A DNA stretch of 64,000 bases from Phoenix dactylifera (lineage: Eukaryota > Streptophyta > Magnoliopsida > Arecales > Arecaceae). A program made the translations under genes and the position numbers. Every line of letters begins with the position of its first letter. Within the stretch, counting starts at the first letter, position 1. The DNA lies in contig NC_052392.1 of assembly GCF_009389715.1 (NCBI RefSeq), positions 31,265,575 through 31,329,574 of the forward strand. Reading direction: 5' to 3'. Below the pieces are notes generated by a model. It ran no database searches, was not told where the DNA came from, and worked only from the letters and a program-made list of their open reading frames with translations. Shown in pieces: positions 12,100 through 35,625 of this stretch.

Positions 12100-14200
12100 T
12101 GAAACAGCAGAAAAAAAAAACCTTGTGTTTAATATTAATTGGTTTAAATTCATGTAAGTACTAAATTATGGTTTGTGAATATATTTTTGTCATACAGCCG
12201 TGTTTCTTTTTTACTTTTCTCTTTTCTTTAGGTGGAATAAGTAGGTGGGGTAAGGGATACTTGTCATGAAACCTCTAACCTCAGTGTATGACTAATCACT
12301 ATATTGCTCATGTATATGCTTCAAAATAAGTCAATGTATAGCATAGAAGATTTTGTTGATATTATTGGCAATCTGATATTGATAGCAGAGAAAATTTGGT
12401 GAAGTGGTTCATATATGGTCCAAGGGCTGAATACTGCCGCCTCTCTTCACCCAAGTCATCTTGTGCGCAGCATTTCCGATTTTGAACTTTGAACTACATG
12501 GGAGGTCTCTAAATTAAGAACATTTTTGCGCAGCATTTCACATTGCACTATTAAACATTTTTGCGAAAATTTTTGATAGGCTTCTCTCTTTTGCTTGCTT
12601 TAACCTTATGTCTTCCAATGCTTGCTGCTTTATTTTACTTTTGGAGTCATGCTCCATGCTCCAGGAATAATTCTTTTGCTACGTGGCGCAGGGGGATTGG
12701 TACATTTCATGAGATTTATTGCTGAACGATGGAAAGATCAATTAATTGTAAAATTACTAAATTAACAGATATTTGAACTTTTTAGTGCATATGGTGGGTG
12801 CTCCAGAGCTTTTTTCCTTACTTTTGTATATATGATGCGAGAGGCAGTGGTTGGTGCAGAGCCATTTAGACGATGTATCAATCACTTAATCTTTGACCCA
12901 AGAGTTTCATGCAGAACAAATTTGAACAAAGACTCGATTTTCTGCTGTCTTTTGAGTCATCAAGTCCGTTGTTTGACTAGGACCGAAACAGTTTGGTGGT
13001 CGCAACTTTTCCGAGTATCAAAATTCTGGCATCTAGTGTCACGAGAATAGCAAATCATCAGCACGAAGTGCCCAGAGAATTTATTGAATGAGGAAAAACA
13101 GGAACAGCTAGTTACAAAGAAAGCAGCAAAAGAAAGAAGGTAATCCTACAGGGTTTAGTAATCCTAGAGAAGGAACGTAATTTGGTGGCATTGTTGGTTG
13201 TAGTTGCACTAGTTTTCGACTCGAGCCATTCACTATTGTGATGGTTTGTTTGGTTGACTCAATGACATCAAGAGGATGCGATCGAAGACTCTTGGAATGA
13301 AGAAATTTATACATACATACACACATACATATATATGTATGTCTTTCTTTTCTACGCACTCAAGCTTGGTCGGATTAACCATGAATTTGTTTAAGAGTTG
13401 ATACATGTCTCCAAGTAAACATACGAATTTTTGATGTCAAGCAGGGCAGGTGAGATCGTGTAAGCAATTACACCACAAACGTGCCATAAGTGTCAATGGT
13501 ACGTCAACAAGATTCCAGCCCATGACTTTCTGGAAAACCTCTTCCTCTGCTAATATAAGATATGCTTTTAATGTAACTTGATAAAAAGAAAAAGGTTCTC
13601 ATTGACCTCAAGACTCAGCTCAGTAACGTTAAAATAATCATCAACAGAGTTTACAGAATGATCGAGCGTAATCTCCTGTCCACAGCTTGACCGAGTCAGA
13701 GTCGGAATTTTCAAACACACGTCATTCCGCAGAAAGAAGGTAATACCATCTGCGAAACAACGGAAATCGGTAATTTTCATCAAACAAATAATTCAAGCAT
13801 CATATATGCGGGTTTTTTGGCACAAGCAAAATATTCCAGAGCCAAGCCGTACGAAGTGAAACTCCCCGGATGGTGTTGAACTCCACTTTGACCGATTTCT
13901 GAGGATGTGGGAACAGATAGATTTCATCCACTTACACGTCACGATAGCTCAAGCAAAAGAGTAGAGAGAGAATCCAACCAAAAAAAAAAAAAAAGTAGAG
14001 AGCGAGAGAGAGAGAGAGCTAAGCGATCAGATATATCTATTAGATACGTAGATGTAGATAGTTTGAAAGAGAATATGAGAAAGGCAAGAAGAGGAGACCC
14101 GGGGGAGTCTTCCTACCACCTTCATCTCGTCCACTCGCCAATTTCTTCTTTAAATTCTCTCTCTCTCTCTCAAAACGCGGTCTACCACGGCCAAAACCTC
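12100..14200. other. Intergenic, no gene recognised
   Basis: AT-rich with short chance reading frames only. Contains (GA)n-type runs near 13990-14020. The last few hundred bases may be promoter for the small gene at 14383. Confidence 0.4.
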
Positions 14201-14201
14201 C

Positions 14202-14210
14202 TATATTTAA
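14202..14210 (+). promoter_or_regulatory. TATA box (TATATTTAA) of the small charged-protein gene
   Basis: TATATTTAA about 175 bp before the start codon, followed by a CT-rich leader (CTCTCTCTCTC at about 14236). This implies a start site near 14235. The leader holds a five-codon upstream ORF starting at ATG 14360. Confidence 0.5.
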
Positions 14211-14382
14211 ACACCAAAGGAATCCAACCTTCCCTCTCTCTCTCTCCCCAAAACTTGGACGAGGAAGGGGAGGAGAAAGGAAGGCACCTTCTCCTTCTTC
14301 CCAAAGTAGCCTTGCATTTCTTCCAAACTCTTCTCTCTCTTCTTCCTCTCTACTAATACATGCAAAGACGTGTATAGGACGG

Positions 14383-14733
14383 ATGGAGGAGGGGCTGACA
14401 GAGCCGGACAAGGAAGCAGCGCAACAGCTGGTTCATCTGAGTGGAGGAGATGAGGAAGGAGAGAGCAAAGGATTAGAAGACAGTGATCACCAGAAGAAGA
14501 AGAAGAAGAAGAAGAAGACGGAAGAGAATGAAGAGGAGGGGAAGGAGATGAGAGCTGAGATCTCAGAAAGAGGAAAGGAGGAAGAGGAGGAGGACGAGCA
14601 CCGGCCGAAGAAAAGGAAGCGGTTTCGGTCCTTGGCATCTATTTACGAGGCGACCAAACCGATAAGCAATGACCATCATGGCAGTAGGAAGAAGCGCAGG
14701 CAAAGAGGAAAGGAAAAAGGATTAGGAGATTAG
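14383..14733 (+). CDS. Small, highly charged, probably nuclear protein of unknown function
   Basis: A single-exon frame of 116 residues. Acidic/polar first third, then Lys/Glu runs, then a basic block with PKKRKRF, which looks like a nuclear localisation signal, then RSLASIYEATKPI, the only segment that looks conserved rather than low-complexity. The tail is again basic (KKRRQRGKEK). Support for a real gene: a TATA box at 14202, a plausible leader and an uninterrupted frame. Against it: heavy low-complexity composition, and an overlapping open frame on the other strand that arises from the same GA-rich sequence. The RSLxxIYxxT segment loosely recalls a motif seen in several plant proteins, but I cannot name a family. 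Function not assigned. Confidence 0.55.
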   Translation: MEEGLTEPDKEAAQQLVHLSGGDEEGESKGLEDSDHQKKKKKKKKTEENEEEGKEMRAEISERGKEEEEEDEHRPKKRKRFRSLASIYEATKPISNDHHGSRKKRRQRGKEKGLGD

Positions 14734-16129
14734 AGAGGAGGTGCAGGTGAGGGTATATATGATCGTTTTTAGTTATGATGTAGTTAATGTTTAGATGGTG
14801 AGAATGATGAAAACTTACGAAGGACAAGAAAATTTTGGAGTTTTTCGTGGGTCGATCTAGTTTCTGGCATTTTTCCTTTTAATGATAGCAAGGATAAAAA
14901 TATTCATTATAGTCTGGATTTGGATCTCATATCTCCTTTCCTTCATTATTATATTGTTGACTATGATAGCGATAACATAGATGATGATCAAACTGACAAT
15001 GGCGAGATTTTTTTAGTTGATGATGCACAAGTTTGCTTCTTGTCGGACACTGTTTCTTCTACTCAATTGTCATTCTTGCGTTTGTCTCCTGAGATGAGAA
15101 TTATAAGGATGATGATTACAATGACAATGACACATCCAAACTCTTATGCACTACTTCGATTCTTGTGTTGCCCATGTCTTCTTCTATTCATGTTTTTTCT
15201 ACCTTTATAATTTGTCCTTTCCTACATTTGATAAAATGAAAGAAGAGAGAGAAACCCACTATTTTTTTTATTTAGTATCATTAGAATTTCTTATTTACAG
15301 GTGAAATGCCTGAAAGGAATAAAAAATCGTGATTGGGAAAAGTCATAATAGCAAAAGCCATTGGAATTTATATTTCACCAATCCACATGCTAAATTCACT
15401 CAACTTTTCTTGCTTATCTAAACAATCCTCATTCAAATGTCCCTTGGCTCCATCAATATTTCAATGAGAGAATGAATAAACCCTCCATGAAACCCTCTAT
15501 GTTGTAAAAGAGATGTCGACATTATATGTGAATATTCTCCAGCATTTTATTAGACCATGACCATCCAGCCTTGTCCCAACTATTTGGGCGGCCGGCTTCT
15601 ATAGAATTTAAACTTGGAAGCCAAATGTCACAGGTCAGTCTCTAAGGTTCAGTTATAGAAGATTTTCCTGATCTTCTGGTAAGAGTCTTCAGTTTAGTTT
15701 CCCTATCTCAATGTATCCAAGGTAGCACTAACTAGTATACTAATACCCGTTAATTGATTTTCTTTTGCAAGTTTGAAGGTGATGATTGATTATATGAATT
15801 TTAAAGCCAAAAAGCAAGACTACCTAACTATGGTGGAGATTCAAGAAATCTTTAAATTTCGTTCCGCGAGAACTTCAAGAGGTGATGCTTCAATATGGAG
15901 AAATCCTACGATAAATCAGCAATCCATGGAGACCACGGTTTCATCGGCGGCGCATTCGGACTACTGTGTATCCAATTGCCACTTGCAATTTTAGATATAC
16001 CAATAGAATATAAATTGGATTTAAGTAGACCACATTATTATGCAGATTCTTCATCATTGGTAAAAATATTATTATGACTCTCGAATCTTGATGACTAGCA
16101 AATAAATAGATACAAACATAGATGGATGG

Positions 16130-22925: not shown

Positions 22926-23008
22926 AGCAAGTCAGAAATCTCGTGTGGAGTGCTGTTCATTGCATTGAAAAATGCTGCACTAGCACAAGATCCTCATCAT
23001 TCTAGTTT
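22926..23008 (-). ncRNA. Box C/D snoRNA copy A (guide for 25S rRNA 2'-O-methylation)
   Basis: On the minus strand: box C ATGATGA (22994-23000), conserved GATCTTGTG just after it, a C'-like AATGAAC, the guide TCCACACGAGATTT, then box D CTGA (22932-22935). The guide is complementary to the plant 25S rRNA segment AAATCTCGTGTGGA as I remember it (14 bp). The nucleotide five upstream of box D pairs with the C of AAATC. The terminal stem is degenerate in this copy. It belongs to a tandem duplication with copy B (unit about 142 bp). By family rule it acts in the nucleolus with fibrillarin. Confidence 0.8.
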
Positions 23009-23065
23009 ATATATTAAAAATTAGTGCTAGCTTACATACATGAATAGATGAAATGTGGAGTAAGC

Positions 23066-23151
23066 TTAGCTAGTCAGAAATCTCGTGTGGAGTGCTGCTC
23101 ATTGCATTGAAAAATGCTGCATTAGCACAAGATCTTCATCAATCTAGCTTA
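23066..23151 (-). ncRNA. Box C/D snoRNA copy B, with perfect 6-bp terminal stem
   Basis: Box C TTGATGA (minus strand, 23036-23042 + 100, i.e. 23136-23142), box D CTGA (23074-23077), and the same TCCACACGAGATTT guide. The closing stem is AGCTAG (minus-strand reading of 23144-23149) pairing with CTAGCT (23068-23073); it lies directly outside box D and one base outside box C, as expected of a processed C/D snoRNA. A C'-like CAATGAGC lies inside. This is the best-formed of the three copies. Confidence 0.87.
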
Positions 23152-23199
23152 TATATTACAAAGTAGTGCTTGCTCACATGCATTAATAAATGATAACCA

Positions 23200-23990
23200 T
23201 CTATACATCTAATGAACTTCACCCTGCAAACCCACTTCGTAGGGGTTCGCTAGCACCTCAAAAGGATTCCATGAAAGAGGATAAAAACTAGTCCAAGCAC
23301 CATATAAATGAGTTTTATCTAGACCCACTTATGAATTATTTCAGAATTCAATAGAACAACATCGAGGAAGACTCCTTGTAAACAAAGAAACAAGCAAAGT
23401 AACCGCATGAAAATTATTATACAAAATTTTCCATATTAAATTTAAAAAGTTAGACTCATTTATGCAAATTAATTTAAATCATCTAATGCCCAACTTCATA
23501 ATTTACATCGTGACCTCCAAATATTTCACTACAACTAGTTTCCTTGAAAACTCTGTATGAACGCCTCTCATAGTCCAACAGATGACATGTGGTCAGATGT
23601 GCAAATGCAATCCCAAAACCACTTGAACGAGAGAACTATTAAGCAAATCTTGCTCTGACAAAAGCATCATGCATACAAATAAATATGCAAGCCATCGTTG
23701 GTTAAGAAAAGCACCATTCAATTTTGAGGATCAAGATTGGATTAGACTAGAGACTTAACTACCTGAAAAATTCAAGCTTGGAATCAAGAAGTTCAATGTT
23801 AATTAATGAAAAAATAAATGTTTAAGAGTTAATGGTTAGCAAATATTTTTTGTTTTACATCGAATTAGATGGAGTGGAATAGCAAGCAAAAATATCTGGT
23901 ACATATCTTATTCATTAAACTTCAAATCAACTTTTTAAAAAAAATCTTCCAATAATTGAAATAGGTCGATGAAAAAAGAATTATTTAGAA
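23200..23990. other. No gene seen; intron-like AT-rich sequence between snoRNA copies
   Basis: No domain or RNA was recognised. Presumably an intron or spacer of the minus-strand host transcript. Confidence 0.35.
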
Positions 23991-23992
23991 GG

Positions 23993-24196
23993 TCATTCGT
24001 CAAAATACTGACTCCACATCCCCTCAATGATTGTGACACACCCCTGCGGATGAGCAACAAGGCAAAGCTGTAGGCATTTGTCAGAAGGTGGCTTTCTAAG
24101 CACTGCTCTAGAACTATTCGCTAAAGATGCATGCTGGGCATAGATGCACATATGAGCTAAAGGGTGCCTGATGTGCTTTAAGCTGCACAACCTCAC
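23993..24196 (-). CDS. Unrecognised 67-residue frame inside the snoRNA host region; possible exon
   Basis: An open frame MRLCSLKHIRHPLAH... to ...IIEGMWSQYFDE, preceded by CTGCAG, which could be a splice acceptor (about 24198). It has a balanced composition (Cys, His, Trp) unlike the low-complexity chance frames nearby. It lies between snoRNA copies B and C on the same strand, so it may be an exon of the host transcript or part of a dead gene. I do not recognise it and assign no function. Confidence 0.25.
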   Translation of the reverse strand: MRLCSLKHIRHPLAHMCIYAQHASLANSSRAVLRKPPSDKCLQLCLVAHPQGCVTIIEGMWSQYFDE

Positions 24197-24551
24197 TACT
24201 GCAGGTACAGTGTATTAAAGGTAAACCACATGCATGTATATCTTAATTACAGAATTATTGGCTACAGTTAAAATCAAAAACCAAAAGTGATCAGAATACA
24301 TTCTTCTGTTTTAGATAAACCTGATGAATTAAAAAGTAAAAAAAAAAAAAGAGTACTACTTTGTTTGTTAGCAAAAGAAAATTAACAAAAAGAGAGAATT
24401 TCTTTCTATAACACTCCATAAACAATCAAATCATTGGCTTCAGACCCACACACAGTCCCACGAACAATATTAGCATTAAACTACAGTTATAAAATCCTCA
24501 TAAAGACAAATAAATAGAAAATCAAATAAAATCCATCATTAAATACTCGGA

Positions 24552-24632
24552 AAATGTCAGAAATCTCGTGTGGAAACCACCATTCATCGTATCCAAAGAT
24601 GCTCTACAATCACAAGATCTTCATCACTCTAT
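24552..24632 (-). ncRNA. Box C/D snoRNA copy C (promoter-proximal, diverged)
   Basis: Box C GTGATGA (24621-24627), box D CTGA (24557-24560), and C'-like CGATGAA in the middle. The interior differs from copies A and B, but the box D guide is kept and extended by one pair (TTCCACACGAGATTT, 15 bp against 25S rRNA). The AGATCTTGTG after box C is also kept. It lies about 280 nt downstream of the inferred minus-strand transcription start. Preservation of exactly the functional blocks in an otherwise diverged copy argues for selection. Confidence 0.85.
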
Positions 24633-24870
24633 TCACACTGCTCAAAATAAAAATGATACCAATGCAAAGCATTTCATCACCAAACTCAAAAAAGGGAAGA
24701 AACAAAGAGGTGGCGAGAATCATATAACCTTGACATTGCTACGATTCGAGAAGAAGAGAAGAGGAATCGAGTCGATCTCAATAGCTCTCACAAACCCGAC
24801 GCAAGAACTTTCCCTTGCTCGCTCGCTCGCTATATCCAGAGAGGTTGACGCACTATAATCCTCACAAGCT

Positions 24871-24879
24871 AAACCCTAG
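24871..24879 (-). promoter_or_regulatory. Telo box (AAACCCTAG on +) just downstream of the snoRNA start site
   Basis: A telo-box variant placed 25-35 nt after the inferred start. TATA plus telo box is a known arrangement for plant snoRNA and ribosomal-protein genes. Confidence 0.55.
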
Positions 24880-24928
24880 ATTTTATCTCCAATCTTCATC
24901 ATCCGCTGCGATCCCAACGATCGGATGG

Positions 24929-24935
24929 TTTATAT
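24929..24935 (-). promoter_or_regulatory. TATA box of the snoRNA host transcript
   Basis: The minus strand reads CCATATAAACC. An expected start site about 30 nt downstream falls near 24900-24905. The telo box follows within the leader. Confidence 0.6.
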
Positions 24936-25019
24936 GGTCACAGAAAGACGTCGAAAGACGAGAGAACAATCAAACCGAAACCAACTCATAAGAGTGAGAA
25001 GAAAATAGACATAAAATTT

Positions 25020-25395
25020 TAAAAAAAAGAAATAGGGGCGTCCGATGTTGATAGAACGGACACCGAGCGGCAGCCCGAGAAATGACGGCACCGATCGGTG
25101 TCCGAAGGCCGGCGCCTTTCGTGCTGGTCGCGAGCCCCTCGCCGAGCCCTCCTCCCCGCCGTCCGATCCATGATCTCCGGCGAGTTCCAGCAAACCCACT
25201 TACTCTATCCTCCCCTCGCTCAAGCGGGTCCTGGGAGGGCGGAGGAGATCGGCGGGGAGAGTTATGGTTAGGGTTAGGGTTAGGGTTTTGGAGGGCGCCC
25301 CGTTGTGCGAGCTTCGCGGACGGCGAACTCTGTGTTTTGTGGAGTACTCGTTGGGTTCGCAAAAATATTTTTCCTCCAGCACTGGAATAACAGTT
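25020..25395. promoter_or_regulatory. CpG-rich island with a triple telo-box tract
   Basis: Sharp GC and CpG enrichment compared with both flanks. At 25266-25289 the plus strand carries GGTTAGGGTTAGGGTTAGGG, i.e. AAACCCTAA-type repeats on the minus strand. It looks like a promoter or first exon, but no domain-bearing frame continues from it on either strand. The snoRNA TATA box lies about 90 bp beyond its left edge and about 330 bp from the telo tract. The Harbinger-like element abuts its right edge and may have cut it off from a former gene. Confidence 0.45.
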
Positions 25396-25589: not shown

Positions 25590-26830
25590 ACACAACATAA
25601 TAAAACATAACATAAATTAATACATAAATATACGATATAGTATAATATGATTGTAATATAAAATAATATTATGTTAATATAGCATAATAGTAATATAATT
25701 ATTAGAGTAAATTAATATTTGATAATATAACATAATATTAAATTATTTAACATAACATATTAATGTATTATGATATAATGTAATATATATTATATTTATA
25801 ATATAATACAATAATAAAAGTATAAAATATTATAATTATTAGTATAAATTAATTTCTCATAATATAACATAATATTAAATTATTTAAAATAACATATTAA
25901 TGTATTATAATGTAATGTAATATAATACAATATTTATAGTATAATACAATAATAAAAGTATAAAATATTATAATTAATATTATAAATTAATTTTTCATAA
26001 TATAACATAATATTAAATTATTTAAAATAACATATTAATGTATTATAATGTAATGTAATATAATACAATATTTATAGTATAATACAATAATAAAGGTATA
26101 AAATATTATAATTATTAGTATAAATTAATTTTTCATAATATAACATAATATTAAATTATTTAACACACCATATTAATGTATTATGATATAATATAATATG
26201 ATATTATATTTATGGTATAATACAAAAATAAAGGTATAAAATATTATAATTATTAGTATAAATTAATTGTTCATAATATAACATAATATTAAATTATTTA
26301 ACATAACATATTAATGTATTATGATATAATATAATATGATATTATATTTATAGTTTAATACAAAAATAAAGGTATAAAATATTATAATTAATATTATAAA
26401 TTAATTTTTCATAATATACCATAATATTAAATTATTTAAAATAACATATTAATGTATTATAATGTAATGTAATATAATACAATATTTATAGTATAATACA
26501 ATAATAAAGGTATAAAATATTATAATTATTAGTATAAATTAATTTTCCATAATATAACATAATATTAAATTATTTAACATAACATATTAATGTATTATGA
26601 TATAATATAATATGATATTATATTTATAGTATAATACAAAAATAAAGGTATAAAATATTTTAATTATTAGTATAAATTAATTTTTCATAATATAATATAA
26701 TATTAAATTATTTAACATAACATATTAATGTATTATGATATAATATAATATGATATTATATTTATAGTATAATACAAAAATAAAGATATAAAATATTATA
26801 ATTATTAGTATAAAATAATTTTCCATAATT
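25590..26830. repeat. 138-bp AT-rich minisatellite, about 8-9 units, inside the Harbinger-like element
   Basis: The anchor AATATAACAT recurs at 25724, 25861, 25999, 26137, 26275, 26413 (one change), 26551 and 26689, a spacing of 137 then 138 bp throughout. Units fall into two types by the stretch after TTAATGTATTA: one with TAATGTAATGTAATATAATA, one with GATATAATATAATATGAT. They alternate in a pattern suggesting higher-order duplication. Confidence 0.9.
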
Positions 26831-26891
26831 ATTTTCCATAATTATTTAATAAAATAATTTTCTGCGGTCCAGGGGCTCTTCTTCATGGTCC

Positions 26892-31692: not shown

Positions 31693-35625
<3,933 letters not shown>

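Follow-up and report, generated by a model that had tools for sequence, protein, structure and literature searches.

Three predicted SnoR148-type box C/D snoRNA genes clustered in Phoenix dactylifera, with a shared guide for the 25S-Cm2683-equivalent position

In Arabidopsis, 2'-O-methylation of 25S rRNA at C2683 is assigned to the snoRNA SnoR148, the sole guide listed for this site in Table 1 of PMC8053127. A single row of the comparative table in PMC11542601 groups Arabidopsis Cm2683 with tomato Cm2686 and tobacco Cm2685, while the human and yeast columns of that row are empty and Cm2429 stands in a column that we read as archaeal. At the level of gene organization, a telo box is reported at 37 of 40 non-intronic Arabidopsis snoRNA loci and at 57% of rice snoRNA loci (PMC3022908). 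Phoenix dactylifera is mentioned in a survey of plant snoRNA families (PMC5122169), whose supplementary family alignments possibly already annotate the genes described here.

We analysed a 64,000-nucleotide stretch of the P. dactylifera genome (hereafter the window, to which the positions below refer unless stated otherwise) with three related segments, A, B and C. These are very probably SnoR148-type box C/D snoRNA genes that belong to a minus-strand host transcript, probably to its introns, and that would guide methylation at the equivalent of 25S-Cm2683. Both the site and its Arabidopsis guide are known. The palm genes are most likely additional members of a known plant snoRNA type, and they probably supply a guide in a monocot for a site that has been mapped in Arabidopsis, tomato and tobacco. 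A text search of the literature with the sequence of the guide and box D returned no match, and among the titles listed in broader literature searches none dealt with this snoRNA cluster. The three copies are laid out as follows:

22926..23008, minus strand: snoRNA copy A (box C 23000-22994, guide 22949-22936, box D 22935-22932)
23066..23151, minus strand: snoRNA copy B (box C 23142-23136, guide 23091-23078, box D 23077-23074)
24552..24632, minus strand: snoRNA copy C (box C 24627-24621, guide 24574-24561, box D 24560-24557)

All three segments were located on the minus strand where the first-pass annotation, made from the sequence alone, had placed them, each with a box C, a box D and the same guide. 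The 14-nt guide, TCCACACGAGATTT, is identical in A, B and C and is followed immediately on its 3' side by box D, which reads CUGA in every copy; from box C to box D the copies measure 69, 69 and 71 nt, respectively. Box C is a perfect RUGAUGA in two of the three (ATGATGA in A, GTGATGA in C), and in copy B it reads TTGATGA (UUGAUGA), departing from R at position 1. Between the two boxes A and B are 94% identical, B being a tandem duplicate of A, and C shares 73-75% identity with either. The earlier description of copy C as diverged everywhere except in box C, the conserved block, the guide and box D is therefore somewhat overstated: the named elements are indeed kept, but at this level of identity other positions, such as AGCAT, are common to the copies as well.

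The perfect terminal stem attributed to copy B is present, with 6 bp and -8.5 kcal/mol, whereas the corresponding stems are weak in A (-1.1 kcal/mol) and C (-1.9 kcal/mol). As judged by eye in the alignments, the internal C' box is recognisable as RCRAUG(A/U) and the D' box is degenerate (CUAG in A, CUAA in B, AUUG in C). One compensatory change (C-G to U-A) is seen in a short stem joining D' and C', in which one of five pairs is broken in two of the five full copies that we found in the genome; in the minimum-energy folds, a D'-C' hairpin is formed by only two of these copies (A and the copy on C14, described below). The overall stability of the five folds is ordinary, with z between -0.51 and -1.45. 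The ordinary stability, the weak stems of A and C, the degenerate D' box and the scarcity of the hairpin count against the snoRNA assignment.

To evaluate how often such an arrangement arises by chance, we used first-order Markov sequences as control. A 14-mer resembling the guide with up to four mismatches and followed by CTGA occurs three times in the window; each occurrence is exact and preceded by a box C. Over 100 Markov sequences such 14-mers averaged 0.22 (0 with up to two mismatches), and 0 at both thresholds when box C was included. The combination of box C and CTGA alone, on the other hand, is not significant, with six occurrences in the window against a mean of 3.7 in 30 Markov sequences, and the case thus rests on the guide. 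Scanning the window with Rfam gave no match at gathering level, so that the cluster sits where no Rfam model detects it; relaxing the threshold to E values of up to 10 between 22500 and 25000 produced three weak matches, none of them to a snoRNA.

The five full copies were used to build a covariance model, which was searched over 106,002 bases. It recovered those five copies (copy A, from which it was partly built, scored 98.1 bits), followed by a copy lacking the guide on contig 22 at 29.1 bits and by three further matches of at most 17.2 bits. The best of these, at 14796-14875 (17.2 bits, E 0.098), has an ATGATGA with neither guide nor CTGA and was taken as chance, as were the two weaker ones (14.4 and 10.8 bits).

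Across the 773-Mb genome, the 17-mer formed by the guide and box D, CCACACGAGATTTCTGA, is found exactly four times, in A, B, C and a copy on another contig (C14); all four places are in such genes. Allowing one mismatch, the limit of this search, beyond which diverged members may be missed, added ten places: the contig-22 counterpart of copy C, an unrelated repeat (seven places), and two sites with no box C within 75 nt upstream. The contig-22 counterpart of C carries one A-to-G change in this 17-mer that retains pairing as G-U. Outside the window there are consequently two more full copies (on C14 and the contig-22 C) and an incomplete one, the contig-22 counterpart of A, which is shortened and keeps box C and the conserved block while its guide is missing.

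The contig-22 stretch aligns with window positions 25327-14100 in 13 BLAST pieces, as expected of a duplicated block. With gaps counted as mismatches, copy C and its contig-22 counterpart are identical in 88.9% of 81 columns, against 51.3% of 113 columns in the intron before and 47.2% of 163 columns after. In the stretches compared, what C14 has in common with chromosome 1, where the window lies, and with contig 22 is limited to the snoRNA and at most about 80 nt of flank; its host gene was not identified from the ORF lists. The conservation of copy C over its flanks and the confinement of C14 sharing to the snoRNA fit selection on the snoRNA itself. Together, the anatomy, the conservation and the near absence of the guide elsewhere in the genome support the assignment of the three segments as predicted box C/D guide RNA genes. 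As a separate observation, minus-strand positions 24265-24185 match contig 22 in about 88% of an 80-column bin, a level equal to that of the snoRNA, within otherwise diverged surroundings, and possibly correspond to an exon or another RNA.

It is conceivable, although we think it unlikely, that some copies, A or C being the foremost candidates, are pseudogenes or silent duplicates, with B or the C14 copy being responsible for methylation. The weak terminal stems of A and C and the truncation of the contig-22 counterpart of A, which has no guide, would agree with such a loss. However, weak stems are not peculiar to A and C, since the C14 copy (-1.7 kcal/mol) and the contig-22 C copy (-3.7 kcal/mol) have them too; moreover, A, B and C all keep the exact guide and box D, and copy C is strongly conserved with respect to its contig-22 counterpart.

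Three minus-strand features around the cluster bear on its putative host transcript:

25266..25288, minus strand: telo-box array AAACCCTAACCCTAACCCTAACC, a possible promoter element of the host transcript (from a motif scan and by analogy to plant snoRNA telo boxes)
24729..24967, minus strand: probable leader exon of the host, with AG|GT at its end, lying immediately upstream of copy C (suggested by the conservation between the window and contig 22)
18784..19717, minus strand: downstream Myb/SANT-like (PF12776) exons with stops and frame changes (open in the contig-22 counterpart)

In the motif scan, site II motifs were absent upstream of the cluster on chromosome 1 and on C14. On contig 22 a single site II motif is present but no exact telo box AAACCCTA, and C14 has two telo boxes, only in reversed orientation. 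Because site II and telo-box content differs among the three places, a shared standard promoter is disfavoured. With respect to the protein exons, the contig-22 Myb/SANT-like locus (404527-405520 of that contig) has a first exon open from its ATG, at 98.9 bits, and a second exon open across the 531 nt read, whereas on chromosome 1 the exons are broken by stops and frame changes in the assembly as given and the first fragment scores 37.1 bits. On chromosome 1 the snoRNAs look as if they had outlived the adjacent protein exons. That A, B, C and the Myb/SANT-like exons share one transcript is a putative arrangement only.

Other features of the window include a plus-strand exon of a ribosomal protein L3 gene at 34594-35244 (PF00297, E 9.2e-69), a plus-strand cellulose synthase exon at 1597-2193 (PF03552, E 1.9e-94) and, as seen by eye, a very AT-rich region with a repeated unit at about 25600-26850. 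A plus-strand open frame of 223 amino acids at 14062-14730 is partly conserved on contig 22 (51% over 189 aa) and has no Pfam match.

Besides the boxes and the guide, a further element is conserved in the D' spacer of each copy, as defined by alignment, pairing and folds:

22984..22992, minus strand: conserved D'-spacer block GATCTTGTG of copy A, complementary to its own guide
23126..23134, minus strand: conserved D'-spacer block of copy B
24611..24619, minus strand: conserved D'-spacer block of copy C

This block lies 3' of box C and is invariant across six aligned sequences save for one base in C14. Read as AGATCTTGTG, it can pair with the guide of the same gene in each of the five full copies, forming 9 bp that include two G-U pairs (8 bp in C14), and the resulting helix is used in all five single-sequence folds as well as in the consensus fold. 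When the letters of the block were shuffled 2000 times, pairing with the own guide gave P values of 0.0105 in A, 0.006 in B, 0.0145 in C, 0.0035 in the contig-22 copy and 0.003 in C14; these come from related copies, with three partners tried, and are uncorrected. A structural role of the helix finds no backing in covariation, since eight of its ten consensus pairs are invariant and, of the remaining two, one is absent from C14; the ordinary overall stability of the folds speaks against such a role as well.

These data lend modest support to the block possibly being a guide-closing element. The predicted duplex of the guide with rRNA (-22.8 to -23.4 kcal/mol) is far stronger than that of the block with the guide (-9.7 to -13.5 kcal/mol), and rRNA could therefore displace the block. 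Going further, we tentatively propose a scheme that we consider improbable as a whole: the block AUCUUGUG would mimic the rRNA target AUCUCGUG, keeping the guide self-masked until opened only by the better-pairing rRNA, and the duplicated host locus would have split its tasks, with chromosome 1 holding three snoRNAs and having lost the protein, and contig 22 holding the protein and one full snoRNA. The conserved self-complementarity between guide and D' spacer is, in any case, a small oddity open to test.

A rather doubtful alternative is that the block acts as a second guide, for instance for U2 snRNA G26 or a second 25S site, instead of clamping the D guide. It does adjoin the degenerate D' box, no guide is listed for U2 G26 in Arabidopsis, and pairing with the first 76 nt of U2 reached P values of 0.045 in A and 0.006 in B in 1000 shuffles. 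But the same comparison gave 0.489 in C, 0.16 in the contig-22 copy and 0.745 in C14, so that pairing with U2 is not maintained from copy to copy (0.006 to 0.745). The other region covered in this second-target scan was the part of 25S just upstream of the methylation site, where pairing is not maintained either (0.189, 0.555, 0.232, 0.115 and 0.122 for A, B, C, the contig-22 copy and C14, 1000 shuffles; range 0.115 to 0.555). Pairing with the own guide is instead retained in five of five copies, at P values of 0.003 to 0.0145.

Starting from the 25S target proposed in the first-pass annotation, we used a 122-nt plant 25S rRNA segment as an assumed reference for both target and numbering. Against this segment, complementarity directly upstream of box D extends over 14 bp in A and B and 15 bp in C, which bears out the proposed extension of pairing in copy C, by one base pair. 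An intact 25S was not found in the genome assembly by exact pattern, and one exact 25-nt pattern of plant 25S had no match in either the genome or the viral contig collection. The assumed segment itself matches six places, four of which Rfam labels as LSU rRNA: an exact 41-nt fragment on contig 22, starting AAATCTCGTGTGGAACAAAAGGG, and five degenerate copies (L022, L023, L024, L025 and L027, on C321, C2, C354, C10 and C45), among which the identities are 83, 82, 80, 80 and 77%, in no assigned order. L022 and L023 align ungapped over 121 nt and L024 and L025 over 112 nt, each pair being near-duplicates, and L027 aligns with gaps; the spacing of the assumed segment is thus ungapped against four of the five own-genome rDNA copies. 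None of the five keeps the exact 14-nt target. Such degenerate 25S rDNA copies (77-83% over the segment) are scattered across the genome.

With no complete 25S recovered from the assembly, the 41-nt fragment and the sequences of other species are the basis for the palm target, and the assumed segment is the basis for the site number. A jute 26S rRNA primer, GTTCCACACGAGATTTCTGTTC, contains the guide sequence (PMC5758602). A Lilium EST primer contains it too (PMC5571923), but since it is labelled as a cytochrome P450-like TBP protein we did not count it as rRNA evidence. The jute primer and the own-genome fragment together back 25S rRNA as the target.

The presence of 25S fragments and degenerate rDNA copies in the genome would also allow the guide-like stretch to be a chance match or a transposed antisense piece of 25S rDNA. 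We regard this as very improbable: the likeness to the assumed rDNA does not reach beyond the guide and the adjoining three bases of box D, the five full copies have box C, box D and their spacing in common, and outside the pair formed by chromosome 1 and contig 22 sharing is confined to the snoRNA with a short flank.

To number the target, the second G of CTGGGGCGG, which we take to be G2620, was set to that Arabidopsis position. Counting from this anchor along the assumed segment, the nucleotide at D+5, the C in AGAAATC, is Arabidopsis 25S C2683, and positions 2641, 2651, 2652 and 2683 read A, U, G and C, in agreement with the listed Am2641, Um2651, Gm2652 and Cm2683. The anchor nucleotide G2620 corresponds to E. 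coli G2251 (PMC8053127 Table 2). The C that had been predicted to be methylated by the D+5 rule thus coincides in position with the mapped plant site 25S-Cm2683. Orthology with U35/snR73, which guides Cm2960 of the same rRNA in Arabidopsis, can practically be discarded, because the target, counted from Gm2620, is C2683, 277 nt upstream of C2960.

Mechanistically, a minus-strand host transcript would release A, B and C, probably from introns, and each RNA would, as expected of its class, assemble into a fibrillarin snoRNP. The 14-15-nt guide upstream of box D would then pair with 25S rRNA AAATCTCGTGTGGA(A) and direct 2'-O-methylation to the C at the D+5 position, which is equivalent to Cm2683 of Arabidopsis 25S.

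Compared with the described systems, the closest is Arabidopsis SnoR148, which has the same predicted target nucleotide by the D+5 rule, a comparison made at the level of the target. The two differ in organization: the palm locus holds a tandem pair together with a third copy, and the genome has more copies outside it, while SnoR148 stands without a multiple-variant mark in Table 1 of PMC8053127. U35/snR73 (25S-Cm2960/Cm2959) is likewise a box C/D guide for a Cm of the same rRNA, but its site is 277 nt downstream of the palm target. Finally, the locus resembles the homotypic and intronic snoRNA clusters of rice and Arabidopsis in having several snoRNAs per locus and a telo box upstream (PMC3022908, PMC5122169), and departs from them in that no site II motif is found upstream on chromosome 1 and that the neighbouring exons are Myb/SANT-like instead of those of a ribosomal-protein gene.
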